Notes under the pieces: generated by a model
The model's input: only the letters and a program-made list of their open reading frames with translations
What the model was told of the DNA's origin: nothing
The model's database searches: none
Source of the DNA: an uncultured Bacteroidales bacterium
GTDB lineage: Bacteria > Bacteroidota > Bacteroidia > Bacteroidales > FEN-979
Assembly: GCA_903845055.1 (NCBI GenBank)
Contig: CAIMWF010000034.1
Span: 1 to 64,000, forward strand
Direction of reading: 5' to 3'
Length of the DNA: 64,000 nt
Translations under genes and position numbers: made by a program
Part shown: positions 22,399 through 60,286 of the stretch, one piece after another
Layout of the letters: the number at the start of each line of letters is the position of its first letter
How positions within the stretch are numbered: position 1 is the first letter of the stretch

Positions 22399-23178
22399 AT
22401 GGCCCTGGTATTAAAAGAATTGACAGACAAGATCGGGTGGATCACCCTGAATCATGATGCAAAGCGCAATGCCCTGAGCATTAACCTGCTGACCGAACTG
22501 CTTGCAGCGCTGAAATACATGAAGGATGAAAAGGCAAGGGTGGTCATCATCAGGGCCAACAAAGGAATGAAGGTATGGTCGTCGGGCTTTTTTATCGATG
22601 AGTTACCGCGCGACGGCAGCGATCCGCTGGCCTATGACAACCCTCTTCAAAAGGTTATCCGGGCCATCCAGGGGTTGCCCGTACCGGTCATCGCGATGGC
22701 CGAGGGAAGTATTTGGGGAGGAGCCTGCAACATCGCCTTCGTGTGCGACATGGTGATCGGCACGCGCGACACCTGCCTGGCCATCACCCCGGCCAAGATC
22801 GGGGTCCCCTACAACACCTCCGGGATCCTCCAGTTCCTTGACATCATCGGCTCGCACATCGTCAAGGAGATGTTCTTCACTGCCGAGCCGATCACCGCCG
22901 ACAAAGCCCTGGCACTCGGCATCATCAACCACCTGGTCGATCCGGGCGATCTTGAAAATTTCACGACACGGCTTGCCCACAAAATCATTGCCAACTCACC
23001 CCTGAGCATCCAGGTGATCAAGGAGCAGCTGAACATCCTCGGAAACGCGCTTCCGATGACGCCGCAGACCTTCGAGCACATCGACATGCTGCGCCGCATT
23101 GCCGGCACCAGCGATGATTACCTCGAGGGGATCAAGGCGTTTTATGAGAAGAGGAAGCCGGTGTTTATGGGGGAATGA
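22399..23178 (+). CDS. scpB: Methylmalonyl-CoA decarboxylase (crotonase family)
   Basis: 259 residues and collinear with Escherichia coli ScpB, which turns methylmalonyl-CoA into propionyl-CoA and CO2. Shared features are 'NALS' near residue 30, 'SSGFFIDELP' and 'DPLAYDNPLQKVIRAIQ' (about 55-95), the oxyanion-hole glycines in 'AEGSIWGGACN' (about 107-117), 'GVPYNTSGI' and the terminal 'EKRKPVFMGE'. A general enoyl-CoA hydratase is less likely because the catalytic acid pattern is that of ScpB. The enzyme could work in propionate formation from succinate. Its stop codon is the first unit of a TGACGAG array. Confidence 0.88.
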   Translation: MALVLKELTDKIGWITLNHDAKRNALSINLLTELLAALKYMKDEKARVVIIRANKGMKVWSSGFFIDELPRDGSDPLAYDNPLQKVIRAIQGLPVPVIAMAEGSIWGGACNIAFVCDMVIGTRDTCLAITPAKIGVPYNTSGILQFLDIIGSHIVKEMFFTAEPITADKALALGIINHLVDPGDLENFTTRLAHKIIANSPLSIQVIKEQLNILGNALPMTPQTFEHIDMLRRIAGTSDDYLEGIKAFYEKRKPVFMGE

Positions 23179-23210
23179 CGAGTGACGAGTGACGAGTGAC
23201 GAGTGACGAA
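23176..23210 (+). repeat. 7-bp tandem repeat, unit TGACGAG, at the scpB stop
   Basis: Four copies of TGACGAG and one of TGACGAA. The first TGA is the scpB stop codon. The array fills exactly the gap up to the stop codon of the convergent flippase gene (23211-23213). The same array occurs at the end of rmuC. Confidence 0.95.
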
Positions 23211-24503
23211 TTAGGGGTTGCGGGTGAGGATTTTGCGGATTTCGGAGGAGAACAGGGTTATTTCAGCACGGGTCAGCAGGAAATCGCGGGGGGTCAGTTT
23301 TGTCATCCGTAAAAAGATGATGAACTGGTAAAGCGTAAGGAACGAATAGGAGCAGGTTGCGGCAATGCCGGCGCCCATGATGCCATAGCGGGGAACCAGG
23401 ACAAGTCCGAGCCCGACCGTAAAGATGAGCCCGATTGCGGAACTGATGGTATTGTGAAAGGGTTTGTTGATGGCTGAAAAGAAGCCGCTGAAAATCATCG
23501 AAACGCTCAGGGCCACGATCCCGAGTGACAGTGAAGCGATCACCATCCTGACATCACCGAATTTCGCAGAGAATACCATCACAAAGACAAATTTCGGGAT
23601 AGCGAGCAGGATTGCCATGGCAGCCAGGGTGACCACCCAGGCAATTTTTGCGAAGGTGAGGGTAAGCCTTGCCGAGTAATTAAAATCCATGGCATTGGAG
23701 AGCCGCGAATACTGGACAGTTCCAAGACTCCTGCTGATCAGCCAAAGTCCTTCGGCCAGCTGCATCCCGATGGTGAGCACACCCACGGCCCCGCGGCCCC
23801 TGAAATAATCGACAAACCGGAGACTAAGCCGGTAATTCAGGGTCTGGAAAAAATTGGCCACCTGCACATAAGTCCCGAAACGAAGAATCTCCGTCACCAG
23901 CTCCTTCATTCCCGTGAGCGGCACCTTTTTGAACGAAGGGAACAGCATCACCAGGCTGATAACCAGCGCGACGGCGTAGGAGATGAAAATAGCCCAGTAA
24001 AAGGCCATCACTTCATGCAAACGAATCCCGAAGAGATAAACGAGCAGGATGATGAAAAGGAGGACCGACTGCACCAGGCTGACCATGTTGAATGAACTGA
24101 CCTTTTCAAGCCCGAGCAGCAGCATGTAATTGACAGAGGCAAATGACATGATGAATGCCAGGAAAAGCACCGGGATGAAGTAGCCCGCAGGAATGACCTC
24201 GAGGATCGGGAAGAGGGTACCCAGGAGGAGCATGGCAAAACTGCCCAGCAAGGTTATTACAAGCGTCCATGCATAAGCCGGGACAAAGAGTTTGTAGATG
24301 CCCACCCTCGGGGTCATGTAAATCAGCGCCCCGCCCGCCACAAAGTTGGTGAAAAGCTGAATGATGGCCACCGAAAAGATGATCAGGCTGATGGTTCCCA
24401 CCTTTTCGGGCCCCAGTACATTGGCATTCAGGGTCCAGGTGAGAAAGGCCAGGATGGCCACCAGCGCCTTGGTGCCGAGGGTTCCCATGACCTTTTTAAA
24501 CAT
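23211..24503 (-). CDS. Polysaccharide flippase, Wzx/MVF type
   Basis: 430 residues, almost entirely hydrophobic helices (about 12), opening with 'LGTKALVAILAFLTWTLNANVLGPEKVGTISLI', the N-terminal pattern of the polysaccharide biosynthesis protein (MOP/MVF) family (quoted here in part: 'NVLGPEKVGTISL'). Such proteins flip lipid-linked sugar units across the inner membrane. It overlaps the end of the upstream formyltransferase-fusion gene by 8 bp and ends directly at the TGACGAG array. The substrate is presumably made by the neighbouring transferases. Confidence 0.88.
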   Translation of the reverse strand: MFKKVMGTLGTKALVAILAFLTWTLNANVLGPEKVGTISLIIFSVAIIQLFTNFVAGGALIYMTPRVGIYKLFVPAYAWTLVITLLGSFAMLLLGTLFPILEVIPAGYFIPVLFLAFIMSFASVNYMLLLGLEKVSSFNMVSLVQSVLLFIILLVYLFGIRLHEVMAFYWAIFISYAVALVISLVMLFPSFKKVPLTGMKELVTEILRFGTYVQVANFFQTLNYRLSLRFVDYFRGRGAVGVLTIGMQLAEGLWLISRSLGTVQYSRLSNAMDFNYSARLTLTFAKIAWVVTLAAMAILLAIPKFVFVMVFSAKFGDVRMVIASLSLGIVALSVSMIFSGFFSAINKPFHNTISSAIGLIFTVGLGLVLVPRYGIMGAGIAATCSYSFLTLYQFIIFLRMTKLTPRDFLLTRAEITLFSSEIRKILTRNP

Positions 24504-36615: not shown

Positions 36616-36638
36616 GCGCCTCAGACGTCCCGCTATCA

Positions 36639-36668
36639 ATCTGAAATCTGAAATCTGAAATCTGAAAT
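36639..36668. repeat. 7-bp tandem repeat, unit ATCTGAA
   Basis: ATCTGAA repeated 4.3 times on the plus strand, between the transketolase N-terminal subunit stop (36674) and the vWA start (36615). Confidence 0.92.
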
Positions 36669-45824: not shown

Positions 45825-45830
45825 GTCGGT

Positions 45831-47633: not shown

Positions 47634-47655
47634 GATGATAGATTTTAAACACGTG

Positions 47656-47687
47656 CAAAGTTAACACTTTTTCGACAACTACTTCAA
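47656..47687 (-). promoter_or_regulatory. Promoter for the DAK2-DegV operon
   Basis: Minus strand TTG (47685-47687), 21-bp spacer, TAACTTTG (47656-47663). It lies within the end of the lipoprotein gene and 22 bp before the start codon. Confidence 0.6.
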
Positions 47688-48179: not shown

Positions 48180-48207
48180 GGCGTTGGTTTGATGTGCCGT
48201 AAAACTA

Positions 48208-48215
48208 CAAAATTA
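48208..48215 (-). promoter_or_regulatory. Possible -7 element for the lipoprotein gene
   Basis: TAATTTTG on the minus strand, 28 bp before the ATG. Fits TAnnTTTG; spacer half not convincing. Confidence 0.45.
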
Positions 48216-48290
48216 AAACAGAATTCATTTGAATATTTGCGCTCCGGGCTGTTAAAAAACATAATAGCGTGCTGTTCATCAATAAATTTG

Positions 48291-48298
48291 TAATTTTG
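48291..48298 (+). promoter_or_regulatory. Possible -7 element for the DUF1573 gene
   Basis: TAATTTTG, 42 bp before the ATG at 48341, in an AT-rich leader. Fits TAnnTTTG. Confidence 0.45.
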
Positions 48299-48340
48299 TA
48301 TAAATTTTCATAATAATCCTAACCTAATAATAAAGTAAAT

Positions 48341-48805
48341 ATGAAGAAGTTTGTTCTCTCATTTGTTCTGGTGGTCTTCGCCGCTTTTTTAGTTAAAGCC
48401 CAGGATGCTCCCCAGCCTAAACCTGCTAATCCGAATGCTCCTGAAATCTCGTTTGAAAAAACGGTTCATGATTACGGAACAATTGTACAGGGTGCCGATG
48501 GTACCTGTGAATTCAAATTCACCAATATCGGAAAAGAACCGTTGATCCTTTCTAGGCCCCAGTCATCATGCGGATGCACCGTCCCCACCTGGCCTCAGGA
48601 ACCGATTCTTCCCGGCAAAAGTGATGTGATCAAGGTTACCTACAACACAAACAATATCGGCGGCATCAATAAAACCGTTACCGTTACCTCGAATGCCAAG
48701 ACCGAAAAGATTGTGCTGCAGATCAAAGGAACCGTGACCCCGAAACCCGCCACCACCGCCCCGGAAAAACCGACGGAAACCGGTGCTGCTCCTGTCACAA
48801 AGTAA
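48341..48805 (+). CDS. DUF1573 exported protein
   Basis: 154 residues: a signal peptide (KKFVLSFVLVVFAAFLVKAQ), a Pro/Asn-rich linker, and one DUF1573 domain (about 38-128) with 'ISFEKTVHDYGTIVQGADGTCEF' (in part) and the 'SSCGCTVPTW' cysteine motif at about 78-87. The fold is immunoglobulin-like, related to ASPM-SPD-2-Hydin domains. Many copies are found per genome in Bacteroidota, and the role is unknown. The C-terminal tail is Pro/Thr-rich. A hairpin terminator follows. Confidence 0.9.
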   Translation: MKKFVLSFVLVVFAAFLVKAQDAPQPKPANPNAPEISFEKTVHDYGTIVQGADGTCEFKFTNIGKEPLILSRPQSSCGCTVPTWPQEPILPGKSDVIKVTYNTNNIGGINKTVTVTSNAKTEKIVLQIKGTVTPKPATTAPEKPTETGAAPVTK

Positions 48806-48830
48806 ATTTTAAAATTCATTTACATGCAAC

Positions 48831-48866
48831 AAGGCCGGCCATAAGCTGGCTTTATTGCTTTTCTTA
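48831..48866 (+). terminator. Intrinsic terminator after the DUF1573 gene
   Basis: Nine-bp stem (48831-48839 with 48845-48853, two G-T pairs), loop CATAA, then a T-rich tail. Located between the DUF1573 stop and the aminotransferase ATG. Confidence 0.6.
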
Positions 48867-48879
48867 AAAACCACTCGTT

Positions 48880-50094
48880 ATGCCAGCAATTTCTAACCGC
48901 GGACAGGCCTGCCCCCCCTCGCCCATCCGCAAACTCGTTCCCTTTTCCGATGTAGCCAAGAAAAAAGGGATGAAGGTGTATCACCTGAACATCGGCCAGC
49001 CCGATATTGAAACCCCGGCCAATGTGCTCGACAAGATCCGCAATACGGACCTGAAGGTGATCGAATACAGCCATTCGGCCGGGATCCTCTCTTACCGAAA
49101 GAAACTGGTTGAATATTATAAAAGGGTGGACATAGATGTCACGCCCGATGAAATGATCGTCACCACCGGGGGCTCTGAAGGGATTCTGTTCACCCTGATG
49201 GTCTGCCTCAATCCCGGCGACGAGGTCATCATCCCGGAACCGTTTTATGCCAATTACAACGGTTTTGCCATTGCGGCCGGCGTCGTTGTAAAGCCAATCG
49301 GTTCATACATTGACAACGGTTTCGGTCTCCCCCCAATGAGCGCCGTTGAAGAGGCCATCACCCCCCGCACCAAAGCCATTATGATTTGCAACCCCAACAA
49401 TCCTACCGGGTATCTCTATTCGAAAGAGGAGCTGGAACTACTGCGGGACATTGTAAAAAAACATGATCTGTATCTTTTTTCCGATGAAGTTTACCGTGAA
49501 TTCGTCTACGACGGGAAAAAACACTATTCAGTTATGAATCTCGAAGGTATTGACCAGAACGTAGTGTTGCTCGATTCCATTTCGAAAAGATACAGCGCCT
49601 GCGGCGTCCGCATCGGGGTGATGATCTCGAAGAACAAGGAGGTCATGAGCACCGCCATGAAATTCGCCCAGGCAAGGCTCAGCCCGCCCACCTTCGGCCA
49701 GATCGCCGGCGAAGAGGCGGTGAACACGCCCGACAGTTACCTTGTGAAGGTCCTCGAAGAGTATGTTAAACGTAGGGACATCGTGGTCCAGTCGATCAAC
49801 CGCATGGAAAACTGTTTCTGCCCCAACCCCGGCGGCGCCTTTTATGCTGTCGCAAGGCTGCCCATCGACGATTCCGATAAATTCTGCCAGTGGCTGCTCG
49901 AAGATTTCAATTTTGAAGGCCAGACGGTAATGCTTGCCCCTGCCACTGGATTCTATTCCACGCCCGGACGCGGCAAGGACGAGGTGCGAATCAGTTATGT
50001 ACTGAACCTCACGGACCTTGCAAACGCGATGAAATGCCTGGAGGAGGCATTGAAGGTTTACCCGGGGAAAAAAAATAGCGAAATAGCGAAATAG
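48880..50094 (+). CDS. PLP-dependent aminotransferase (aspartate aminotransferase type, class I/II)
   Basis: 404 residues. 'VYHLNIGQPDIETP' near the N-terminus, 'NPNNPTGYLYS' (about 173-183), the cofactor lysine in 'DSISKRYSACGVRIG' (Lys at about 235) and a final 'VRISYVLN' are typical of fold type I aspartate aminotransferases. It moves amino groups between glutamate and oxo acids; the amino acid substrate cannot be told. The C-terminal residues NSEIAK and the TAG stop come from three 8-bp repeats (AAATAGCG), so the core protein is about 398 residues. Confidence 0.93.
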   Translation: MPAISNRGQACPPSPIRKLVPFSDVAKKKGMKVYHLNIGQPDIETPANVLDKIRNTDLKVIEYSHSAGILSYRKKLVEYYKRVDIDVTPDEMIVTTGGSEGILFTLMVCLNPGDEVIIPEPFYANYNGFAIAAGVVVKPIGSYIDNGFGLPPMSAVEEAITPRTKAIMICNPNNPTGYLYSKEELELLRDIVKKHDLYLFSDEVYREFVYDGKKHYSVMNLEGIDQNVVLLDSISKRYSACGVRIGVMISKNKEVMSTAMKFAQARLSPPTFGQIAGEEAVNTPDSYLVKVLEEYVKRRDIVVQSINRMENCFCPNPGGAFYAVARLPIDDSDKFCQWLLEDFNFEGQTVMLAPATGFYSTPGRGKDEVRISYVLNLTDLANAMKCLEEALKVYPGKKNSEIAK

Positions 50095-50096
50095 CG
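50073..50096 (+). repeat. 8-bp tandem repeat, unit AAATAGCG, at the aminotransferase stop
   Basis: Three exact copies of AAATAGCG; each contains TAG, and the TAG of the third (50092-50094) is the stop codon in frame. Confidence 0.93.
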
Positions 50097-50124
50097 AAAA
50101 TTGGATTGCAAGCCGTTTCGCAGA

Positions 50125-51303
50125 TCAGTACAACAGGTATTTCTTTCTGATTTTTTTGAATTTACGAAGTCCGGGGTCCCAGCTATCCCGGATTTCTTTT
50201 TCTGATTTTCCCAAGCGGATCTGCAGCTGCAGGGTTGCATTGCCGGCCAGTTTGTTAAAGTACGGAGAAAAGAAATCCGGGTCGGTCCCCAATTCATGGA
50301 ATGCCTGCAGCAGCCACGACAATTCTATTTGTCCCTGTTTCCCGGGATTGTTCACAAGAAAGCCCCTCAGGTCGGTGCCATGGCATAGTTTCCCTTCCAG
50401 GGGAGGATGCAGGCTCGCCCCCGGGATTGGCCCGGGAGTGAATGAAAAGGTTCCGGACTTCATCCCCGGGTGACCAAAAACTTCAAACGGGAAGGGGGTT
50501 CCTCGTCCCACGCTGACGATGGTTCCTTCGAAGAAACAGAGCGACGGGTAAAGGTAAACCGCGTTGATCCCGGGCAGGTTGGGAGAAGGTTTTTCGGGCA
50601 GTTCACACCGGGTGTCATGGGTATAGTTCTTCAGCCTGATCACTTCCAGACCACAGGTTGCCCGGTTCCTGAGCCAACCTTCGCCGTTGACCATCCGGGC
50701 ATACTCCCCGATGGTCATCCCGTAAACCACGGGAACCGGGTGCATCCCCACGAAGGAGGCATATTCCTTTTCGAGGACTGGCCCGTCTATGTAAAAGCCA
50801 TTTGGATTGGGCCGGTCAAGGAGGATCAGCGGGAGGTGATTTTCGGCGCAAGCCTCCATGACATAAGAAAGGGTGGAGATATAGGTATAAAACCTGACAC
50901 CGACATCCTGTAAATCAAACACCATGTAATCAAGCGATCTGAGATCGGCGGGCACCGGCTTTTTCCGTGAACCATAAAGGGATACGACCGGGATGCCTGT
51001 TGCAGGATCGGTTTCCCCTGCCATTGCCTGTCCCGCGTCGCCCGTTAAACGGAAACCATGTTCGGGTGAAAAGATACGGATCACCTTCAATCTATGCCCG
51101 AGCATAAGGTCAACGATATTGACGGAGCCGGCCACCGAAGCGTTGTTTGCGACAACACCCACGTTTTTCCCCCGGAGCAGCGGGAAATAGGAACCAGTAT
51201 CCATCGCCCCGGGCATCACCTGCGCCGAAACCATTACCGGCAATAACCATAAGACCGCCATGCACCCTGCCATGCGCGCACGACCCAATATATTCCTGTC
51301 CAT
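50125..51303 (-). CDS. namZ: Exo-beta-N-acetylmuramidase NamZ (DUF1343)
   Basis: 392 residues from the ATG at 51303; the longer open frame overlaps the divergent permease gene. A signal peptide (AVLWLLPVMVSAQ) is followed by the DUF1343 (YbbC, GH171) domain: 'GKNVGVVANNASV', 'FSPEHGFRL', 'FDLQDVGVRFYTYISTLSYVMEA' (in part), 'LDRPNPNG' and 'EGTIVSVGRGTPFPFEVFG'. The Bacillus homologue removes MurNAc from non-reducing ends of murein fragments. Together with the GH3 protein this gives stepwise degradation of glycan fragments. Confidence 0.92.
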   Translation of the reverse strand: MDRNILGRARMAGCMAVLWLLPVMVSAQVMPGAMDTGSYFPLLRGKNVGVVANNASVAGSVNIVDLMLGHRLKVIRIFSPEHGFRLTGDAGQAMAGETDPATGIPVVSLYGSRKKPVPADLRSLDYMVFDLQDVGVRFYTYISTLSYVMEACAENHLPLILLDRPNPNGFYIDGPVLEKEYASFVGMHPVPVVYGMTIGEYARMVNGEGWLRNRATCGLEVIRLKNYTHDTRCELPEKPSPNLPGINAVYLYPSLCFFEGTIVSVGRGTPFPFEVFGHPGMKSGTFSFTPGPIPGASLHPPLEGKLCHGTDLRGFLVNNPGKQGQIELSWLLQAFHELGTDPDFFSPYFNKLAGNATLQLQIRLGKSEKEIRDSWDPGLRKFKKIRKKYLLY

Positions 51304-51324
51304 GTCACTGATCAAAAAAAGACA

Positions 51325-51332
51325 TACTTTTG
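51325..51332 (+). promoter_or_regulatory. Probable -7 element for the LolC/E-like gene
   Basis: TACTTTTG, 20 bp before the TTG start codon at 51353. Fits TAnnTTTG. Confidence 0.55.
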
Positions 51333-51352
51333 CAAAGTAAACACTTCTTTTT

Positions 51353-52573
51353 TTGAATACTGAACTTTTTCTGGCCAAACGTCTTGTGTCGCGAAGCAAA
51401 GGAAATTTTTCCTGGACCTTCGTGGTGATCGCTATTACCTCCATTGCGCTCGGGCTGGCGATCATGTTCGTGGCGGTCGCCATCCTGACGGGATTTAAAA
51501 AAGAGATCAGTGAAAAGGTTGTTGGCTTTTGCGGGCATGTCCAGATCACGAAGTTCACCGAAAATTCGACCTATGAACCCCAGCCGGTTGAAAAGGCACA
51601 GCCCTTCCTGGTCCGGCTGAACCAGGCGAAAGAGGTCAGCCATATCCAGGTATTTGCCAGCAAGGCCGGCATCATCAAGACCAGCGACCAGATCCAGGGG
51701 GTGATCCTGAAAGGGGTAGGATCCGATTATGACTGGAGTTTTTTCAGGAACCGCATGGCGGAGGGACATGTTTTCAAACTGAACGACACCATGCGAAGCG
51801 ACGAGGTGATCATCTCCAGGAAAATTGCCAGGCTGCTCAACCTCCACCTCAATGACGACCTGCGGATGTATTTCATTGTCGGCACCACGACGCTGGGCCG
51901 TAAATTCAAAATATCGGGCATCTATGACACCGGTCTCGAGGAATTTGACAAACTCTACGTGATCGGCGATATCCATCATATCCAGAAACTCAACAACTGG
52001 ACCGGCAGCCAGGTGGGAGGCTTCGAGGTTTATCTTAAAAATTTCAGGGATATCGACCGCATGGGGGTCTACATCTACCACCTCATCGGCTTCAGCCTCG
52101 ACGCACAGACGATCAAAATGCAGTATCCCCAGATTTTCGACTGGCTCGATCTCCAGGACATCAACGTGCTGATCATCCTGATCCTGATCATCCTTGTATC
52201 TTCAACCACCATTATTTCGACCCTGCTGATCCTGATCCTCGAAAGAACCACCATGATCGGCATCCTGAAGGCGCTCGGCATGCGAAACGTGAATATCCGC
52301 AAGCTTTTCCTCTACAACGCATTATATATCGTGGGCTGGGGGATTTTCTGGGGCAACCTGCTGGCCTTCACACTTTGTTTTCTCCAGAAAAAATTCGAAC
52401 TTGTCACCCTTTCGCAGGAGTCGTATTATGTTTCGGTGATCCCCGTCAACATCAACCCCTGGAACATCCTGCTGATCAACCTGGGAACGATCGCGGTTTG
52501 TTACCTGATCTTCATCATCCCGTCGCTGATCATCTCGCGGGTGACCCCCTTGAAGGCGATCCGGTTCAGCTGA
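51353..52573 (+). CDS. LolC/LolE-like ABC transporter permease
   Basis: 406 residues; TTG start at 51353 (no ATG upstream in the short leader). One helix at about 20-45 ('VVIAITSIALGLAIMFVAVA'), a periplasmic MacB-PCD domain (about 50-270), then three helices in the FtsX domain with 'LILERTTMIGILKALGMRN' (about 297-315). This four-helix plan is that of LolC/E and MacB, type VII ABC permeases that work on lipoproteins or other envelope cargo. No ATPase gene is adjacent; one may be encoded elsewhere. Confidence 0.9.
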   Translation: MNTELFLAKRLVSRSKGNFSWTFVVIAITSIALGLAIMFVAVAILTGFKKEISEKVVGFCGHVQITKFTENSTYEPQPVEKAQPFLVRLNQAKEVSHIQVFASKAGIIKTSDQIQGVILKGVGSDYDWSFFRNRMAEGHVFKLNDTMRSDEVIISRKIARLLNLHLNDDLRMYFIVGTTTLGRKFKISGIYDTGLEEFDKLYVIGDIHHIQKLNNWTGSQVGGFEVYLKNFRDIDRMGVYIYHLIGFSLDAQTIKMQYPQIFDWLDLQDINVLIILILIILVSSTTIISTLLILILERTTMIGILKALGMRNVNIRKLFLYNALYIVGWGIFWGNLLAFTLCFLQKKFELVTLSQESYYVSVIPVNINPWNILLINLGTIAVCYLIFIIPSLIISRVTPLKAIRFS

Positions 52574-52585
52574 TCAGAACCTGTG

Positions 52586-53380
52586 TCAGCCATTGTCGTC
52601 ACGAGGGTAAATCAGGTCGAGCCCGCACACCAGATTCTCAAGGTATTCCATGGCTTTATGTACAAATTTTTTCGGAATGACCGACCCGTGTTGCGGCAGG
52701 ATTGCATTGATGTCGTAGGGAACAAGGCTTTTTACAAACCCGCGCGTGGCAATGTTGCTGGCCATGTAATCAAGATGAAACAGGTTCATCTTCGCAATAT
52801 GGTTGCAGAAATCCTCTACCACCAGCCGCCATTCGGTATCAATGGCGGCCCACACATCGCCCGAAAAAAGGAATTTCGACGTCTCATCCCACGTGGCGAA
52901 GGCCCCGGGAAAATGAAGGAAGGGTGCCTCCAAAAACTTCAGCCGCTTTCCTGATTCAAACGTATAAACCGGGTTTTCGTTGATGCTGATGTAGGAATAG
53001 TCCCGGCTGCCATAGTGCCGCAGCAGGATGTTGGTCCTGATGGAGGTGATGATCCTGATCTCCGGGTAAAGGGTCAGCCAGTCAACCATCGAAGCCGCAA
53101 CGTCGGGATCCTGGTGGCAAACGATCAGCCCGGAAACCTTGTGCGGGGGGATGATCTGGCCGACCCGCATCCTGACAAATTCGAAGGAACCACGGCCGCC
53201 CGGGTCAACCAACAGCGCCTCCTGTCCGTCCACGATCAGGTAAGTATTGCACCGGAAGGCTGAAGGCTCGGGAACTCCGAGCCAGTATACGGCATGCTGG
53301 TCATCCTGGAACAACGGTGTAGGCTTTTCCCAGGTGTTGTTGAACATCCGTCCAAGTTCGACCAGGTCGATCGTGTTCAT
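52586..53380 (-). CDS. Di-iron metallo-beta-lactamase-fold protein (ODP type)
   Basis: 264 residues from the ATG at 53380; the upstream open frame runs into cysH. The metal site is 'CHQDPDVAAS' (about 103-112), a His-x-Asp-x-Asp variant of the flavodiiron His-x-Glu-x-Asp motif, with 'FLHFPGAFATWDE' and 'FLFSGDVWAA' supplying further ligands and the terminal 'LPQHGSVI'. It is the oxygen-binding di-iron (ODP) domain without the flavodoxin part. It follows cysH by 10 bp, so the two are probably co-transcribed; a role in oxygen or NO detoxification or sensing is inference. Confidence 0.85.
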   Translation of the reverse strand: MNTIDLVELGRMFNNTWEKPTPLFQDDQHAVYWLGVPEPSAFRCNTYLIVDGQEALLVDPGGRGSFEFVRMRVGQIIPPHKVSGLIVCHQDPDVAASMVDWLTLYPEIRIITSIRTNILLRHYGSRDYSYISINENPVYTFESGKRLKFLEAPFLHFPGAFATWDETSKFLFSGDVWAAIDTEWRLVVEDFCNHIAKMNLFHLDYMASNIATRGFVKSLVPYDINAILPQHGSVIPKKFVHKAMEYLENLVCGLDLIYPRDDNG

Positions 53381-53390
53381 AATCTTGTTT

Positions 53391-54095
53391 TTAGTCTTTC
53401 GTATGTAATCCGCATTCTTTGTTCCGGGGCATTTCCCACCACCACCGGCCTGAGCGTATCTCCTCGCCAGGGGCGACCTGGCGGGTACAGGGAAGGCAGC
53501 CGATGCTGGGATATCCTTTCGAGTGGAGGTCACTGACCGGGACATGGTTCGTCCGGATGAACTCCCACACCATGTCGTCGCTCCAGTCGATGAGCGGGTT
53601 AACTTTAAGAATCGGCAGGGCCGGGTCCCATTCAATCATTTTTGCTTCGGAACGGGTAACCGATTGTTCGCGGCGCATCCCGGTGATCCAGATTTCCATG
53701 CCTGCAAGGGCCCTTATCAGGGGTTCCTTCTTGCGTATATGACAACACATGCGTCGCAGTTCAATGCTACGGTAGAACAGGTTAATCCCGTTGGCGTTCA
53801 CCATATCCTCCACAGCGGAGGATTCGGGAAAGAAAATGCGTATGTCCATCCCGTATTTAACGCGTGTGATCTCCAGGAGATCGTAGGTTTCCTGGAAAAG
53901 CCGGCCGGTGTCGAGGGTGAAGACCTTCACCGGATCGGCAATTTTTGACAGTAAATGAGTAATCACCTGGTCTTCAGCGCCAAGGCTGGATGAAAATGCG
54001 ATATTCCCAGGGTACTGACCGGCAAACCATGCCAGAATATCGCCGGGTGCAGCAGTCTGAAAGCGTGCATTCAGGGATGCAATATTTTCTACCAT
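53391..54095 (-). CDS. cysH: Assimilatory APS reductase (iron-sulfur type CysH)
   Basis: 234 residues from the ATG at 54095 (a TTG 18 bp earlier is also possible). The PP-loop 'SSSLGAEDQV' (about 35-44) and the C-terminal catalytic 'ECGLH' (227-231) are present. Two cysteine pairs, Cys117-Cys118 in 'RRMCCHIRK' and Cys200/Cys203 in 'GCLPCTR', form the 4Fe-4S cluster that marks adenylyl-sulfate rather than PAPS reductases. It makes sulfite with thioredoxin for cysteine synthesis. No cysDN or cysI genes are in the window. The di-iron protein gene follows. Confidence 0.95.
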   Translation of the reverse strand: MVENIASLNARFQTAAPGDILAWFAGQYPGNIAFSSSLGAEDQVITHLLSKIADPVKVFTLDTGRLFQETYDLLEITRVKYGMDIRIFFPESSAVEDMVNANGINLFYRSIELRRMCCHIRKKEPLIRALAGMEIWITGMRREQSVTRSEAKMIEWDPALPILKVNPLIDWSDDMVWEFIRTNHVPVSDLHSKGYPSIGCLPCTRQVAPGEEIRSGRWWWEMPRNKECGLHTKD

Positions 54096-54174
54096 ATTCA
54101 ATGTGCGGATCAAATTTTGGGTGAATTTACAAAAATTGGTTCAGGATTCGCAAGATTTTCCTCCCGGAATGGCG

Positions 54175-54182
54175 TATTTTTG
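54175..54182 (+). promoter_or_regulatory. Possible -7 element for mpl
   Basis: TATTTTTG, 16 bp before the mpl ATG at 54199. Fits TAnnTTTG. Confidence 0.45.
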
Positions 54183-54198
54183 GACAAATTATTACCTC

Positions 54199-55563
54199 AT
54201 GCGTCTACATTTTATTGCCATCGGGGGCAGCGCCATGCACAACCTCGCCATTGCCCTACACAAAAAAGGAAATGCCGTCAGTGGTTCTGATGATGAAATT
54301 TTCGAACCCTCCAAAAGCCGGCTTGCTTCATACAACCTGCTTCCCATAAGCCAGGGCTGGGATCCGGGCCGGATCACGAACGGGCTCGATGCCGTTATCC
54401 TCGGGATGCATGCCAAACCTGACAACCCGGAATTGCTGAGGGCCAGGGAGCTTGGGATCAGTATTTTTTCTTACCCCGAATACCTATACGAACAGTCGAA
54501 AAACAAGAAACGCGTCGTGATCGGCGGGAGCCACGGCAAAACCACCATCACGGCCATGATCCTCCATGTGCTGCAGCAAGCCGGGATGGACTGCGACTAC
54601 ATGGTCGGCGCCCAGCTTGAAGGTTTCGATGTGATGGTCAGGCTCACGGACGAAGCGCCCGTGATGATCATCGAGGGCGATGAATACCTCACCTCTCCTA
54701 TCGACCTGCGCCCGAAGTTCCACCTGTACAAGCCCGACATCGCCCTGCTCAGCGGGGTCGCCTGGGACCATGTCAATGTTTTCACAACCTTTGAGCAATA
54801 TGTCGAGCAATTCGTGATCTTCATCCGGTCTGTTATAAAAGGCGGATGCCTGATCTGGTGTGATGAGGATGAGGAGCTGCGGAAGATCTGCTCCGGGTCA
54901 AGGGGTGACCTTACCATCCTTTCTTACGGTTCCCCGCCTGCGGATATCCGTGACGGGATTACCCACCTGGTCACACCCGGTCAGGATTACGAACTGCAGA
55001 TCTTCGGCAAACACAACCTCCTGAACCTGAATGGTGCCCGCCTGGTCTGCAACCAGCTTGGGATCAGCGACAAGATGTTTTATGAATCGATCCAATCTTT
55101 CCGGGGGGCGTCGAAGCGGCTGGAGATGATCGCGCAGCAGGATACCAGGACCGTTTACAAGGATTTCGCCCACGCGCCATCGAAGGTGGAGGCCACACTT
55201 CAGGCGGTTAAGGAACAGTTTTCAGGCCGCAGGATCATCGCCTGTCTGGAATTGCACACATACAGCAGCCTGAACGGTGCATTCCTGAGCCACTACCGTG
55301 GGACCCTCGATCCGGCCGATGTTGCCATCGTTTATTTCAACCCCCATGCTTTGAAACTGAAACGCCTTCCCGAAATCACCACCGAACAGGTGAAGGAGGG
55401 ATTTATGAACGACGGGCTGGAAGTTTTCACCGATGCCGGCATGATGGTTGACCGCCTGCTCCTCGAGAAAAACCAGGGTTGTGTACTGCTCATGATGAGT
55501 TCCGGCAATTACGACGGGGTCGACCTGAAAATTTTTGCAGAAAAGTGGGCAGGCCTAAAATAA
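54199..55563 (+). CDS. mpl: UDP-N-acetylmuramate:tripeptide ligase Mpl
   Basis: 454 residues from the ATG at 54199, where the Mur ligase N-terminus 'RLHFIAIGGSAMHNLA' starts. 'VIGGSHGKTTITAM' (about 107-120) is the P-loop; 'IEGDEYLTSPIDLRPKF' (in part) and 'YKDFAHAPSKVEAT' (about 318-331) are the Mpl versions of the Mur central motifs. The enzyme joins the recovered peptide L-Ala-gamma-D-Glu-meso-DAP to UDP-MurNAc, so that murein is recycled. Its presence supports a functional recycling route with the other murein enzymes. Confidence 0.95.
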   Translation: MRLHFIAIGGSAMHNLAIALHKKGNAVSGSDDEIFEPSKSRLASYNLLPISQGWDPGRITNGLDAVILGMHAKPDNPELLRARELGISIFSYPEYLYEQSKNKKRVVIGGSHGKTTITAMILHVLQQAGMDCDYMVGAQLEGFDVMVRLTDEAPVMIIEGDEYLTSPIDLRPKFHLYKPDIALLSGVAWDHVNVFTTFEQYVEQFVIFIRSVIKGGCLIWCDEDEELRKICSGSRGDLTILSYGSPPADIRDGITHLVTPGQDYELQIFGKHNLLNLNGARLVCNQLGISDKMFYESIQSFRGASKRLEMIAQQDTRTVYKDFAHAPSKVEATLQAVKEQFSGRRIIACLELHTYSSLNGAFLSHYRGTLDPADVAIVYFNPHALKLKRLPEITTEQVKEGFMNDGLEVFTDAGMMVDRLLLEKNQGCVLLMMSSGNYDGVDLKIFAEKWAGLK

Positions 55564-55567
55564 ACAT

Positions 55568-55607
55568 CCCCCGGTTCTTTCCGTGCATGCAGGGAAAGAA
55601 CCGGGGG
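55568..55607. terminator. Bidirectional hairpin terminator between mpl and rho
   Basis: A perfect 15-bp inverted repeat (55568-55582 with 55593-55607) with a 10-base loop. It starts 5 bp after the mpl stop and lies 24 bp after the end of rho on the other strand. On the minus strand a T-rich tail follows, so it is a good intrinsic terminator for rho; for mpl the tail is weaker. Confidence 0.85.
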
Positions 55608-55630
55608 ACGTGGACTGGCTTCAGCGGAGG

Positions 55631-57550
55631 TTACCCGTTCATCGAAATGAGGAATTCTTCGTTGGAGTTGGTGAATTTCATCCGTTCCTTAAGGAATTCC
55701 ATAGCCTCCAGCGGATTCATGTCGGCGAGGTGGTTCCGCAGGATCCAGATCCGCTGCAGGGCATCCTTGTCGAGCAGGAGGTCTTCACGGCGTGTGCTTG
55801 AAGAAACGATGTCGATGGCAGGATAGATGCGTTTGTTCGAAAGTTTGCGGTCGAGCTGCAATTCCATGTTGCCCGTTCCCTTGAACTCCTCAAAGATCAC
55901 CTCATCCATTTTCGAACCGGTTTCAATAAGGGCTGTTGCGATGATTGTCAGCGATCCGCCGTTTTCGATCTGGCGTGCAGCGCCGAAGAACCGCTTGGGT
56001 TTCTGGAGGGCATTTGCCTCGACACCTCCCGAAAGAACTTTTCCGGAGGCCGGCGCAACGGTATTGTAGGCGCGTGCAAGACGGGTAATGGAATCGAGCA
56101 GGATCACCACATCATGACCGCATTCAACAAGTCGTTTGGCCTTCTCGAGAATGATATTCGAGATCCGCGTGTGGCGGTCGGCCGGTTCGTCAAAGGTGGA
56201 GGAAATAACCTCGGCCTTAACACTGCGCTGCATGTCGGTGACCTCTTCAGGCCGTTCGTCGATGAGCAGGATGATCATGTAGACATCGGGGTGGTTGGCG
56301 GCGATGGCGTTGGCGATCTCCTTGAGCAGGACTGTTTTACCGGTTTTCGGCTGGGCTACGATCAACCCGCGCTGACCGAAACCGATCGGTGCGAACATGT
56401 CGATGACCCGGGTCGACATGCTTTCATTCTTATGCCCGGTGAGTTTGAATTTCTTCATCGGGAAAAGGGGCGTCAGGTAATCGAAGGGGATTCTGTCGCG
56501 AACCTCCTCAGGTTTGCGCCCGTTGATCAGGTCAACCTTGATGAGGGGGAAATATTTTTCTCCCTCTTTCGGCGGACGGATGGTTCCGCGAACCGTATCG
56601 CCTGTTTTCAGTCCGAACAATTTGATCTGCGACTGCGACACATAGATATCGTCAGGGGAATTCAGGTAATTATAATCGGATGAACGCAGAAAGCCATAAC
56701 CATCGGTCATGATTTCAAGCACACCTTCGCTGACGATGATGCCTTCGAACTCGAAGGTATATTCTTCACGGTGACGTTCGGGGTATTTACGCGGGAAATC
56801 GCGCTGCTTGCGGTCGTCAGACACCGGTTGAGCCGATGCGTCGGACAACGACTCGTTCAATTCGGTTTCTGAAACCTCCATAGGCCCGTCCGGCTTCTGG
56901 ATAATATCGATGGGATCAATGGCGATGAAAGGTTTGTCGCCCGTTTCCTCAAACTCAAACCGTTCTTCGACCGGGTCGCTGATTTCGGGCAGGGTCATCT
57001 TGACAAATGGTTCAACCGCCGATTTTTCCTGGTATGGCCTGAAAGGCTTGTTTTCCCTGGGCGGACGTTGCTGGCGGGGAGGGCGTGCATCTTTGGGTGC
57101 AAGCGGGTCCCTCGGCGGGCGCTGGTCTTTAGGTGCCATCGGGTCGCGCGGCGGGCGCTGGTCTTTGGGCGTATGCGGTAAACGCGGCGGACGCTGGTCC
57201 CGGGGCTGACGCTGTTCGCGTTGGGGTTGCTGCACTGCGTCGGACGGCTCCCTTTTTTCAACAGCACCGTCGGTGGTGCCGGGTTCCTTTGCAACTCCGG
57301 GAAGAGCCGTATCACGGGGCCCCCTGGAGGTTTCGTTCTGATCTTTGCGCGGCCTGCCGCGGAATGGTTTGGCCTGCTCCTGCTTTTCCATGTTCAGGAT
57401 CTCCGGTGTCGGATTCAGCGCCTGGTAATCGAGAATTTTGTAAATGAGGTCCTGCTTTTCAAGTTTTTCAACTTTTGGGATGTTGAACTGCTTGGCAATC
57501 ACTCTGATCTCCGACAGCTCTTTGCTGTCGAGGGAAATAATGTCATACAT
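55631..57550 (-). CDS. rho: Transcription termination factor Rho
   Basis: 639 residues. Rho N-terminal domain about 5-45; a disordered insert of about 180 residues (50-230), rich in Arg, Pro, Gln and Asp, with a decapeptide repeated three times ([10 protein letters not shown]-like, residues 118-166); RNA-binding cold-shock domain about 250-330 ('[10 protein letters not shown]'); ATPase with Walker A '[14 protein letters not shown]' (about 406-419) and '[10 protein letters not shown]' (Walker B region). It ends transcripts by translocating on RNA. The insert is the Bacteroidota form; in Bacteroides thetaiotaomicron a corresponding disordered region drives phase separation. Confidence 0.96.
57053..57199 (-). 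repeat. Decapeptide-coding repeat in rho
   Basis: About 147 bp encoding residues 118-166 of Rho, with three near copies of a unit reading [10 protein letters not shown], followed by a looser fourth. Confidence 0.8.
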
Positions 57551-57666
57551 GATGTAAATGTTTAATTGAATGTATAGTCAGTGTGAGATGAACTATGGGT
57601 TAGAAAATAAAGTTTGAAAGGATTGAAAACGCGAAAAAGAAATGCTCGTGGGGATTAAAATCATTG

Positions 57667-57696
57667 CAAAGATAGACATTATTCCTTTATTGTCAA
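57667..57696 (-). promoter_or_regulatory. Promoter of rho
   Basis: Minus strand TTG (57694-57696), exactly 19 bp, then TATCTTTG (57667-57674). This is the full consensus. It leaves a leader of about 110 bases before the rho ATG, long for this window; rho leaders often carry autoregulation, but I see no clear structure. The 218-bp gap to DUF4293 holds nothing else. Confidence 0.82.
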
Positions 57697-57768
57697 GTTT
57701 TTTTCCCTAACCTCCTTCATCTCAACGGAAATCTTTTCTAATTTCGCAATGAATTTAACCATCCTGAC

Positions 57769-58245
57769 ATGTTACAGCGAATTCAATCCGTCTACCTGGC
57801 TGTCGTAGCCCTGGCCTGCCCCCTGCTGTTTTTTTTTCCGCTGGCAAAATATTATAATGACCTGCACGGCAATTATAAGTTTTTCATCTATGGGATCAGG
57901 TGCATGGATCCTGAGCCGAAAATCCATTTCAGCACCTTTTTCACCTCGCCCCTGATTTTCCTTGCCATCGCCTCATTTATCTTTGCCGTGGTCACCATCT
58001 TCAGTTTCCGGAACCGGATGCGCCAGATCCGCCTGTGCGCCTTCAACCTCATCACCAACATCGTGCTGATCATGGTGGTCTTTTTCTTCTATGCCACCCG
58101 GATACAATCCATGACCGGGATCGAGCCCGATTACAATTTCATCGGCATGGGGCTGCCCCTGTTGTCGATTGTGATGCTGATCCTCAGCAACAGGGCCATC
58201 CGCAAGGATGAATCGCTGGTAAAATCGGCCGACCGGCTGAGATGA
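57769..58245 (+). CDS. DUF4293 membrane protein
   Basis: 158 residues with four membrane helices (about 5-25, 58-80, 88-110, 125-143). The opening 'MLQRIQSVYLAVVALAC' and the terminal '.LILSNRAIRKDESLVKSADRLR' region are typical of DUF4293, found only in Bacteroidota and often next to rho. Function unknown. It is divergent from rho. Confidence 0.9.
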   Translation: MLQRIQSVYLAVVALACPLLFFFPLAKYYNDLHGNYKFFIYGIRCMDPEPKIHFSTFFTSPLIFLAIASFIFAVVTIFSFRNRMRQIRLCAFNLITNIVLIMVVFFFYATRIQSMTGIEPDYNFIGMGLPLLSIVMLILSNRAIRKDESLVKSADRLR

Positions 58246-58264
58246 ACACGCGGCGGAAAACGCC

Positions 58265-58756
58265 TTACCTAGGAATATCAACCACCTCCAGGTCGCGCAT
58301 GTTGTTCCCATCAATCACAAGGCGCACGGCTGTAACCGATTTGTGAATGCCATACTTCCCAGCCGCCCCCGGGTTGATATGCAGCAGGTTGTTTTGCTTA
58401 TCATACATGACCTTCAGGATGTGCGAATGGCCTGCAACAAATAACAATGGCTTCTCCTGCGCGATGAGCCTCCGGGCCCTGGGATCGTACCTGCCGGGAT
58501 AGCCCCCGATATGGGTCATCAGCACCCTCACCTGTTCAACCTGGAAAACCTGGTTTTCGGGAAATTCAATGCGCAATTCCTGGCCGTCGATGTTGCCGTA
58601 AACCGCCCGGAGGGGCCTGAGGCCGGCCAGCTGGCGGGCAACTCCAATGCTCCCGATGTCGCCTGCGTGCCAGATCTCATCAACCTCCGCGAAAAATGCG
58701 ACGACGCGGGGATGCACAAAACCATGGGTATCTGATAAAATTCCTATCCGTGTCAT
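58265..58756 (-). CDS. YfcE/MJ0936-type metallophosphodiesterase
   Basis: 163 residues from the ATG at 58756. Metal-binding motifs are complete: 'GILSDTHGFV' (Asp-x-His), 'IWHAGDIGS' (Gly-Asp), 'VYGNIDGQE' (Gly-Asn-x-Asp), 'LMTHIGGYP' and 'FVAGHSHI' (Gly-His-x-His). This group hydrolyses phosphodiesters such as 2',3'-cyclic nucleotides or model substrates; the in vivo substrate is uncertain. Length is normal. It is convergent with the DUF4293 gene 19 bp away. Confidence 0.92.
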   Translation of the reverse strand: MTRIGILSDTHGFVHPRVVAFFAEVDEIWHAGDIGSIGVARQLAGLRPLRAVYGNIDGQELRIEFPENQVFQVEQVRVLMTHIGGYPGRYDPRARRLIAQEKPLLFVAGHSHILKVMYDKQNNLLHINPGAAGKYGIHKSVTAVRLVIDGNNMRDLEVVDIPR

Positions 58757-58870
58757 CTTATTCCCTGGATTTTCTTCCGCAAAATTACGAAAAGCCGTCA
58801 CCGGTCTTCAAACTTTCGGTTTTTACCCCCTGATTTTCGGTTCCGTGAATCAGGATTGGGTTAATTAACC

Positions 58871-58878
58871 TATTTTTG
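58871..58878 (+). promoter_or_regulatory. Possible -7 element for rmuC
   Basis: TATTTTTG, 21 bp before the rmuC ATG at 58900. Fits TAnnTTTG. Confidence 0.45.
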
Positions 58879-58899
58879 TCCTTTATTAGCGGATTTTCA

Positions 58900-60261
58900 A
58901 TGGAAACTATTTTCATCCTCGTCAACGGGATCGGTTTTATCGCCCTGATCCTCCTGCTCTATTTCAGGACGGGCCGGGCGGGCAACAACACCCTGGCTGC
59001 CGATCTTGAGCAGCTCAGGCTTCGTATGGAAGCTTTGGGCAATGAAAAAACCACGGTCGAAGAAAGGGCCCGCATGCTGCAGTCACAGCTTGATGCGGCT
59101 TTAATGCAATCGTCGCTGAAAGATGAGGCGATCCTCACCCTGAACAGGGATCTATCGACCTGTACCTCCGAATATGCCAGCCTTCAAAAGAAGCTGGCGG
59201 AGCAGCAGGCGGACATTGAAAAGCTACAGGATAAATTCAGGCTGGAGTTTAAGAATCTTGCGAACGAGATCCTGGAGGAAAAGACCCAGAAGTTTACCGA
59301 TCAGAACAAGCTTCGCCTCGACGAGATCCTCAAACCTCTCGGGGAGAAGATCAGGGATTTTGAAAAAAAGGTCGAAGAAACCTACGACAAGGAATCGAAA
59401 CAGCGGTTTTCGCTCGAACGCGAAATCAGGAACCTTGCCGATCTGAACCAGCAGATCAGCAAGGAGGCGAGCAACCTTACCAACGCCCTGAAAGGACAAT
59501 CCAAAACCCAGGGTAACTGGGGGGAGGTGATCCTGGAGACCATCCTGGAAAAGTCGGGACTGACACGCGACCGCGAATTTTTCGTGCAGCCATCTTACAC
59601 CAACGACCAGGGGAAACGGCTCCAGCCCGACGTCATCGTGGCCTACCCGGGAGAACGGAACGTGGTGATCGACTCCAAGGTTTCGCTGGTTGCCTATGAA
59701 CGGTATGCATCGGCCGAAACAAAAGAGGATCAGGACCTTGCCGCGAGGGACCACCTGCTCTCGGTACGGAACCATATTTCGGACCTCAGCAGCAAAAACT
59801 ACCAGGATATCTACACCCTGAAAAGCCTTGATTTCGTCATGCTTTTCATGCCGATCGAACCTGCTTACATGCTGGCCGTTCAATATGACCAGAACCTGTG
59901 GAACTATGCCTATGAAAAGCGCATCCTGCTCATCAGCCCGACCAACCTGATCGCGGCGCTTCGCATGATCGCCAACCTGTGGCGTGTTGAATACCAGAAC
60001 AAAAACGCCATGGAGATAGCGCGCCAGAGCGGCGAGTTGTACGACAAGTTCACCGGGTTCATCGACGACCTGCTGGATATCGGGAGCCGGCTCGAGGGCA
60101 CCCGCAAAGCCTATGAAGCATCCATGAACAAACTGTCGACCGGCAAAGGAAATCTCATCCGGAGGGTGGAAACCATCAGGACGCTGGGGGCCAAGGCGGG
60201 CAAGGTGATTCCGAAGTCGCTACTGGACAGGTCGGAGGAAGAAATGACGAGTGACGAGTGA
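58900..60261 (+). CDS. rmuC: RmuC-family recombination-limiting protein
   Basis: 453 residues from the ATG at 58900 (an in-frame TTG at 58876 lies in the promoter). An N-terminal membrane helix (about 4-22) precedes a long coiled coil (about 30-200) and the nuclease-like RmuC domain ('TQGNWGEVILETILEKSGL', 'QPDVIVAYPGERNVVIDSKVSL', in part). RmuC restrains recombination at inverted repeats in Escherichia coli by a mechanism not worked out. The last five residues MTSDE and the TGA stop are encoded by the TGACGAG array, suggesting the true end is near 'LLDRSEEE'. Confidence 0.93.
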   Translation: METIFILVNGIGFIALILLLYFRTGRAGNNTLAADLEQLRLRMEALGNEKTTVEERARMLQSQLDAALMQSSLKDEAILTLNRDLSTCTSEYASLQKKLAEQQADIEKLQDKFRLEFKNLANEILEEKTQKFTDQNKLRLDEILKPLGEKIRDFEKKVEETYDKESKQRFSLEREIRNLADLNQQISKEASNLTNALKGQSKTQGNWGEVILETILEKSGLTRDREFFVQPSYTNDQGKRLQPDVIVAYPGERNVVIDSKVSLVAYERYASAETKEDQDLAARDHLLSVRNHISDLSSKNYQDIYTLKSLDFVMLFMPIEPAYMLAVQYDQNLWNYAYEKRILLISPTNLIAALRMIANLWRVEYQNKNAMEIARQSGELYDKFTGFIDDLLDIGSRLEGTRKAYEASMNKLSTGKGNLIRRVETIRTLGAKAGKVIPKSLLDRSEEEMTSDE

Positions 60262-60286
60262 CGAGTGACGAGTGACGAATGACAAG
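60245..60286 (+). repeat. 7-bp tandem repeat, unit TGACGAG, at the rmuC stop
   Basis: Four TGACGAG, one TGACGAA and one TGACAAG. The TGA of the third unit is the rmuC stop. The first five units are identical to the scpB array 37 kb away. Confidence 0.95.

Follow-up and report, generated by a model that had tools for sequence, protein, structure and literature searches.

Tandem heptamer and octamer words with word-specific polarity at gene boundaries in the genome of an uncultured Bacteroidales bacterium

The stretch of DNA considered here, called the window at its full length of 64,000 nucleotides, lies within contig CAIMWF010000034.1 (C34) of an uncultured Bacteroidales bacterium (FEN-979; assembly GCA_903845055.1), a 3.95-Mb draft genome in 175 contigs, and contains at four gene ends tandem arrays of 7- or 8-bp units that overlap the stop codon. 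These arrays belong to a species-specific lexicon of repeat words, in which TGACGAR (TGACNNR in related genomes), TAAATCG, and RRTAGCGA each possess their own polarity relative to the adjoining gene boundary. The placement rules of TGACNNR and TAAATCG recur in relatives and in convergent gaps, and the rule that RRTAGCGA follows a sense stop is shown in the own genome only. The best explanation, held at slightly better than an even chance, is that of fast-turnover spacer words with a word-intrinsic polarity at gene boundaries, including the takeover of stop codons.

The genome was sampled as stretches totalling 828,102 bases including the window, with 649 genes predicted by our own calling script (90% coding), and exact arrays were defined by at least 2.7 copies and at least 19 bp. 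The scan for tandem units of 7–9 bp, which had been proposed by an earlier reading of the window made from its letters alone (the sequence-only reading), was run on this sample and gave 89 exact arrays of 2.7–6.1 copies, of which 63 had a unit of 7, 24 a unit of 8, and 2 a unit of 9 bp, a few rows of the list overlapping each other; no arrays of unit 4–6 or 10–12 were found in the same sample. Only 9 of the 89 are inside called genes, though genes cover 90% of the sample. Two first-order Markov copies of the first 455,103 sample bases contained no exact arrays, so the 87 arrays of unit 7 or 8 are not due to chance. The set thus has two features of long simple sequence repeats (SSRs), namely exact tandem units of 5–11 nt above chance and a mainly non-coding location of units that are not multiples of three.

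The commonest units are TGACGAG (16 arrays), TAAATCG (13), TAAAAAT (9), and TAGCGAGG (9). Genome-wide, three consecutive units of TGACGAR, TAAATCG, and RRTAGCGA gave 62, 36, and 77 overlapping matches, respectively, and each reversed pattern gave 0; the same control for the TTAAAAA word (23 matches vs 26) was useless, because the reversed word rotates into itself. In the order, three units of TGACGAR are rare, being found in 5 of 198 genomes, which are the own genome and four with one match each. Among 19 genomes of the genus the number of TGACNNR matches ranges from 0 in four species up to 817 in one, and the reversed control was non-zero in 4 of the 19 (G014, 21; G016, 10; G008, 1; G009, 1; relatives are denoted by G and own contigs by C). 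Among the matches listed, TGACAAR predominates in G018; in G004 most are TGACGAA, and other loci carry TGACAGG and TGACGCG. RRTAGCGA arrays have a polarity of their own inside: as the last two units of the 77 overlapping windows, the order GG unit before AA unit occurs 18 times and the reverse order 5 times.

The placement of the words was compared with a uniform intergenic null, where arrays are re-placed at random over non-coding positions, and with an own-gap null, where each array is re-placed at random within its own intergenic gap. The site sets comprised all 42 distinct TGACGAR sites (the contig ends C23/C123 counted as one, and C1/C167, possibly one locus, as two), 32 TAAATCG sites (30 loci extracted from the 36 genome-wide matches, together with sites in sampled DNA), and 16 RRTAGCGA sites from sampled DNA or DNA around other words; the own-gap null per word used the 37, 29, and 16 sites, respectively, with both neighbours called. 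In this test TGACGAR was located within 6 bp of a sense stop in 20/26 cases vs 9.1 expected (0/5000 simulations) and near an antisense stop in 3/17 vs 5.6, and RRTAGCGA within 6 bp of a sense stop in 11/14 vs 4.6 (p 0.0004) and near an antisense stop in 0/7 vs 2.5. TAAATCG was located within 20 bp of an antisense stop in 12/13 cases vs 4.2 expected (0/5000 simulations), within 10 bp upstream of a sense start in 5/16 vs 1.7 (p 0.014), and within 10 bp of a sense stop in 1/17 vs 5.3. This word has TAA on one strand only, and at stops its stop-free strand is the sense one; stop content is therefore not a general placement rule.

Since arrays of TGACGAR and RRTAGCGA that overlap a stop are necessarily in the stop-bearing sense, the comparison of sense with antisense stops was also made without overlaps at a 10-bp cut. 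It gave 6/9 vs 0/7 for RRTAGCGA (p 0.011) and, in the reversed direction, 0/16 vs 7/12 for TAAATCG (p 0.0007), and was not significant for TGACGAR (9/15 vs 5/17, p 0.15). Of the 14 TGACGAR arrays without overlap, 7 have their first base no more than 3 bp past the stop vs 2.5 expected under the own-gap null (p 0.0003). In tandem gaps the preference for sense orientation was not significant for any of the three words (TGACGAR 17:8, TAAATCG 10:6, RRTAGCGA 9:2). All TTAAAAA arrays downstream of a sense gene (3/3) overlap its stop, and both strands of this word carry stops. Seeding of TGACNNR by TGA stops only was rejected, since arrays without overlap are found after TAA and TAG stops too.

Placement in relatives was studied in 17 genomes (about 0.99 Mb), with TGACNNR sites from 10 and TAAATCG sites from 5 of them; gene calls in 11 of the 17 were made with a model trained on two other genomes, and part of the loci correspond by orthology to rmuC, scpB, and the aminotransferase gene of the window. 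TGACNNR was within 20 bp of a sense stop in 20/25 cases vs 12.0 expected (p printed as 0.0000), within 6 bp in 14/25 vs 7.6 (p 0.0046), and within 20 bp of an antisense stop in 7/14 vs 6.7. TAAATCG was within 10 bp of an antisense stop in 7/8 vs 2.2 (p 0.0004), within 20 bp of a sense start in 8/9 vs 1.6, the distance being 4–18 bp upstream in 8/9, and within 10 bp of a sense stop in 0/11. In convergent gaps, which contain no start, TGACNNR is nearer the sense stop by 19:4 (own genome 12:1, relatives 7:3; p 0.0026), TAAATCG nearer the antisense stop by 11:0 (own 7, relatives 4; p 0.001), and RRTAGCGA nearer the sense stop by 5:0 (p 0.06), every site entering these counts once; two gaps contribute two TGACNNR arrays each and one gap two TAAATCG arrays, and counted per gap the ratios are 17:4 for TGACNNR and 10:0 for TAAATCG. 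In the convergent gaps of C84 and C103 a TGACGAR array is present at each end; both arrays point into the gap, each in sense with the gene on its side, which makes the short C84 gap a candidate for a long hairpin.

When all words are taken together, 38 of 79 arrays are within 20 bp of a stop vs 23% expected under the uniform null, and starts are avoided, with 1/79 overlapping or touching a start vs 15% expected. Under the own-gap null, stop overlap or abutment is 19/64 vs 19.4 expected, closeness within 20 bp is 38/64 vs 32.1 (12/500 simulations as high), and within 30 bp it is 44/64 vs 36.5 (6/500). The general closeness to stops, which looked strong by the uniform null, is thus mostly a short-gap effect, because the own-gap null removes most of the excess; the enrichment at stops predicted by the sequence-only reading stands against the uniform null, nearly vanishes against the own-gap null, and is retained by the single words TGACGAR and RRTAGCGA. 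Its companion prediction, that the unit has a stop in the sense direction, agrees with these two words, is reversed in TAAATCG, and for the 34 non-overlapping arrays of all words nearest to a stop gives 17 with a stop on the sense strand only vs 13 on the antisense strand only. Purine loading was considered as a cause of orientation and rejected: stop-side arrays are purine-rich in sense in 37/51 cases (p 0.0018), and without overlaps the numbers are 21 vs 13 (p 0.23).

The comparison of related genomes covered orthologous junctions of six probe genes in up to 21 relatives; junctions were excluded when both genes were not found in matching order or the gap was >1500 or < -60 bp, start-side edges were estimated, and several upstream gaps of rmuC of about 1.1 kb probably contain an uncalled gene. 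At own array-bearing non-divergent gaps of at least 25 bp an array of 7- or 8-bp units was present again in 44/76 relatives, compared with 6/42 at gaps of the same class without an array here (junction-level p 0.012), a contrast that carries bias, as the probe genes were picked for adjoining arrays here and the arrays of relatives at rmuC and the aminotransferase gene were known beforehand. The unit was shared with the own genome in only 4 of the 45 array-bearing relatives at own-positive junctions, and 3 of these 4 are TAAATCG. The positions of arrays thus recur across relatives, most simply because the same gaps are permissive, with the words mostly replaced. Two gaps of conserved length had no arrays: the gap upstream of priA is 50–53 bp in 14/14 genomes, and the divergent gap by lpxD is 107–110 bp in 13/14 genomes and 191 bp in one.

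The gap between rmuC and rlmB illustrates this replacement, being occupied in relatives by TGACAAG, by TGACCAA and then TGCCTAT x16 (in G008 the TGACCAA array after the rmuC stop passes straight into the 16 copies of TGCCTAT), by GAATATT/GAATAAC, by ACTGCCA, or by nothing; this reading omits 12 loci, 9 of which were read later for C-terminal tails. Altogether 10 of 20 rmuC ends have no array. At the same stop codon of scpB the repeats are TGA|CGAG here and TGA|CAAG in G018, and rmuC ends in TGACGAG repeats with a third-unit stop here and in TGACAAG repeats with a first-unit stop in G018. A difference in copy number was found in one pair, the start of C1 and the end of C167, which are 94% identical over 745 alignment columns (14 gap columns) and carry four and six TGACRAR units, respectively, the stop being the first-unit TGA in both; the two may be two strains or a duplication. 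This two-unit difference is the one case in favour of the earlier suggestion that the arrays mark a slippage hot spot. The start of C23 and the end of C123 also meet at a TGACGAR array.

After masking of exact arrays, tandem gaps still had a raised self-match at lags 7 and 8 (0.292 and 0.302) vs 0.266–0.281 at lags 9–13, convergent gaps had lags 6, 7, and 8 all raised (0.290, 0.295, 0.285), and divergent gaps were raised only slightly; the raised match at lags 7 and 8 is a sign of decayed arrays. A comparison of 73 masked gaps with each other gave 19 matches, mostly of repeat words, with one 46-bp non-word stretch in one pair, and mobile elements of miniature inverted-repeat transposable or repetitive extragenic palindromic type, or common flanks of another kind, were rejected on these grounds. 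A TAAATCG mosaic with one variant unit is near-identical at C134 50866, C62 28967, and C134 5648, and partial at C134 25348.

According to the explanation preferred here, tandem words 7 or 8 bp long (TGACGAR, TAAATCG, RRTAGCGA, TTAAAAA, and others) make up a lexicon particular to the lineage; they would inhabit permissive intergenic junctions, vary by whole units, turn over fast, and recur at many separate junctions, probably by growth and loss through replication slippage and by copying of arrays between loci. Each main word has its own polarity relative to the adjoining gene boundary: TGACNNR and RRTAGCGA begin at or a few bases past the stop of the gene to which they are sense, and TAAATCG ends a few bases short of the gene body, which it faces from the start side or, with an antisense gene, from the stop side. 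When TGACNNR or RRTAGCGA in sense orientation reaches a gene end, the array takes over the stop, because a unit of 7 or 8 bases gives a stop in every frame within three units, and the gene then adds at most a few array-coded residues. This frame property, already pointed out by the sequence-only reading, is borne out by the overlaps of own TGACGAR arrays with genes of -3, -10, and -17 bp (6, 1, and 6 cases), which are the three frames; it would make arrays tolerable at gene ends rather than selected for termination.

Several observations weigh against this explanation. The starts of non-overlapping TGACGAR arrays within 3 bp of a stop (7/14 vs 2.5) go beyond tolerance, and tolerance leaves the TAAATCG rule unexplained, so something more must act. 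Copying between loci would have to be read from 73 masked gaps that share mostly repeat words, and slippage from one pair, C1/C167, which could be two strains or a duplication. Units were compared across species in which neutral intergenic DNA is already saturated, and the figure of 4/45 may undercount sharing, since the aminotransferase tail KKNSEIVK of G015 against KKNSEIAK here implies a shared word or array at that locus. Finally, the placement of RRTAGCGA was derived from 16 sites vs 77 overlapping matches genome-wide. A bolder form of the explanation, regarded as improbable, is an active sequence-specific process that writes or copies species-specific 7–8-bp words into junctions with fixed polarity and overwrites older words, so that orthologous gaps would stay array sites under the lexicon of each species and many gene stops would be handed over.

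Among the alternatives, neutral spacer arrays alone, produced by slippage in permissive gaps and placed where they are harmless, are unlikely but have the largest share of the remaining probability. The overall stop overlap equal to the own-gap expectation agrees with such arrays, and so does the lack of arrays in the two length-conserved gaps by priA and lpxD; yet the polarity of words in convergent gaps, where no start constrains them, and the presence of the same few words at many loci of the 89-array set are not accounted for, the latter being unexpected from local birth alone.

Slightly less likely are elements of mRNA ends, with which the arrays would serve as binding or processing sites after stops and as leader elements a few nucleotides before starts. 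Such elements would be expected to keep to one strand and to a narrow distance, as TGACNNR and RRTAGCGA do from stops and TAAATCG from starts; the arrays on the start side have a lower GC content than those on the stop side (0.31 vs 0.44, p 0.0014), the inward-facing TGACGAR arrays of C84 and C103 are candidate hairpins, and translational regulation was proposed for TAACTGA repeats before starts (MacGregor 2015, PMC4679880). Against this function it counts that a given junction mostly has another word in another species (4/45 shared), that four of 19 species of the genus have no TGACNNR match, that orthologous junctions with and without arrays coexist, and that the Rfam search of the window for structured RNA families gave nothing at gathering score.

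Doubtful in a greater degree is the proposal of the sequence-only reading that the arrays are frame-independent translation stops, here understood as arrays kept by selection to catch frameshifted or read-through ribosomes. TGACGAR and RRTAGCGA would fit it, being anchored at stops with the stop-bearing strand as the sense one (for TGACGAR this holds in the absence of overlap as well), and the three TTAAAAA arrays overlap the stop of the sense gene, though both strands of that word have stops. Against it are the stop-free sense strand of TAAATCG (12/13 cases, and 11:0 in convergent gaps), so that the stop-bearing strand is not the sense one for all stop-bearing words, the balance of 17 to 13 among non-overlapping arrays, the overall overlap of 19 vs 19.4, and the frequent lack of arrays at orthologous gene ends such as those of rmuC. 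Frame-independent termination thus suits two words, probably as tolerance and not as a general function. An assembly artefact is highly improbable: it would agree with the draft state of the genome (175 contigs) and with the two pairs of contig ends that join at arrays, but separately named metagenome-assembled genomes carry arrays at the same junctions, and the sample arrays have 2.7–6.1 copies and are mostly kilobases away from contig ends.

Similar repeats are known from other bacteria. The short tandemly repeated repetitive (STRR) sequences of cyanobacteria are tandem heptamers between genes, with units and taxa that differ from those here, and they are not known to follow a stop rule. The sequence-only reading knew of no description for gene ends of this kind, which proved incorrect, since stop-overlapping heptamers were reported by MacGregor (2015, PMC4679880) and Rehm (2015, PMC4692102). 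In the former study direct repeats of TAACTGA in Beggiatoaceae, Cyanobacteria, and some Bacteroidetes are placed mostly upstream of starts, 13 repeat sets overlap stop codons, stops in all three frames are noted, and a possible mobility is discussed. The arrays described here share with them the intergenic heptamers of few copies, strand preference, three-frame stops, stop overlap, and patchy distribution; related TAACTGA-bearing strains differ mostly in 7-nt steps (PMC4679880), to which the C1/C167 pair may be a counterpart. That study concerns a single word, in most cases close before a start, whereas here each genome has several words, of 7 and 8 bp, two at stops in sense and one opposite, with mostly other words at orthologous gaps of related species; placement of the TAACTGA type, forward and a few nucleotides upstream of a start, is seen in a part of the TAAATCG arrays and not in TGACNNR or RRTAGCGA. 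The TAACTGA unit itself was absent from the units of the 828-kb sample, no genome-wide search for it being made.

In Xanthomonas and Nostoc, GGGAATC and GGGGA(C/T)T heptamers were described (Rehm 2015, PMC4692102) that are intergenic, abundant, G-rich, and quadruplex-forming; many of them have, on the sense strand, a stop no more than 50 bp away, and some overlap it. Abundance between genes, nearness to sense stops, and occasional overlap are common to both sets, while GGG occurs in none of the four main words described here. In the survey of long SSRs with units of 5–11 nt (Mrazek et al. 2007, via PMC4679880) heptamers were the commonest long unit in most genomes, and repeats inside genes had mainly multiple-of-three units; the dominance of heptamers and the location of other units mostly outside genes are the same here. 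That work is an abundance survey, however, and nothing on the boundary polarity of single words was seen in its summary in PMC4679880. The new element is the species-specific repeat lexicon with word-intrinsic, boundary-anchored polarity; the literature searched gave no description of words that differ in polarity and retain it from one species to the next even though a given site exchanges its words.

The excess of heptamers in bacterial genomes was noted earlier and has no agreed explanation. As the placement recurs in relatives and is explained neither by stop content nor by start avoidance, this long-known oddity can now be put to the test: the words would be recognised by mRNA ends, or else the process that spreads them would sense gene boundaries. 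For the annotation of gene ends it also matters that some genes owe their stop codon and final residues to a rapidly changing repeat.

All four gene-end arrays of the window named by the sequence-only reading are present, perfect save for degenerate edges, and each overlaps a stop codon, with array ends that differ by 1–8 bases from those given there; the names of the four genes agree with family scans. The scpB-type gene for methylmalonyl-CoA decarboxylase of the enoyl-CoA hydratase family (22399–23178, plus strand) ends in TGACGAG x4.9 (23176–23209, or to 23210, plus strand), the first TGA being its stop, and the array fills the 32-bp convergent gap. The gene for an ADP-forming acyl-CoA synthetase-like protein with CoA_binding_2, Succ_CoA_lig, and ATP-grasp_5 domains (42227–44302, minus strand) ends at 42227 within AAAATTA x4.1 on its sense strand (TAATTTT on the plus strand; 42221–42249), a word with stop codons on both strands, which encodes the final residues KLKIKN and the stop; degenerate AATGCAGAC/AATACAGG words of 8–9 bp (42116–42195, plus strand), after a stop at 42117, share the gap with it. 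The gene for a pyridoxal phosphate-dependent aminotransferase (48880–50094, plus strand) ends in AAATAGCG x3.4 (50073–50099, plus strand), the AA form of the RRTAGCGA word, which encodes the tail NSEIAK and the stop. The rmuC gene (58900–60261, plus strand) ends in TGACGAG x4.9 (60245–60287, perfect 60245–60278 and degenerate beyond, plus strand), whose third-unit TGA is the stop and which encodes the tail MTSDE; its downstream neighbour is rlmB (60311–61051, plus strand), identified by family scans. The products of rmuC and the CoA ligase gene match their families but fall under the NCBIfam equivalog cut-offs.

Orthologue tails show that the last residues are array-made in three of these genes. 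The C-terminus of the rmuC product is SEEE-MTSDE here vs, for example, AEEEN, SEEETD, and SETDG in relatives and MTNDE in G013, and an array-made (M/V)TSDE tail is common to different genes at six own TGACGAR sites with a third-unit stop. The aminotransferase ends in KKNSEIAK here and in RK, RKKS, RKSV, RQS, and similar residues in most relatives, the exception being KKNSEIVK of G015, nearly as here though without an exact array. The CoA synthetase ends in VEKKLKIKN, which differs in three relatives read.

Four further exact arrays are present in the window, at 10407, 18557, 36638, and 37525, two just upstream of starts, one within a gene, and one 5 bp past a stop. TAATTAA x3.7 (10407–10432, minus strand) precedes the called start of the gene 9654–10403 by 3 bp, and AATTAAA x3.7 (37525–37550, minus strand) precedes that of the gene 36674–37519 by 5 bp; past the stop of the latter gene at 36674 AATCTGA on the plus strand (TCAGATT on the gene strand; 36638–36668, minus strand) follows after 5 bp with its stop-free strand as the sense one. 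The gap at 10407–10560, downstream of a minus-strand gene ending at 10573, is filled by degenerate GGTGAAAA/GGTGACAG words and thus holds two words, TAATTAA being directly before the next start. Terminator-like sites over 42050–61000 numbered 32 vs 23.6 in shuffles (standard deviation 4.7), with no tie to the arrays. In the gene 18245–19825, which has YjeF_N and Carb_kinase domains, an 8-bp array (GAATGCAG/GAATACAG, 18542–18591) is in frame within the YjeF_N domain as a coding insertion of a word that is otherwise intergenic. In rho (55631–57550, minus strand) a 36-bp tandem repeat of 3.1 copies (57090–57199) is placed between the N-terminal and RNA-binding domains.

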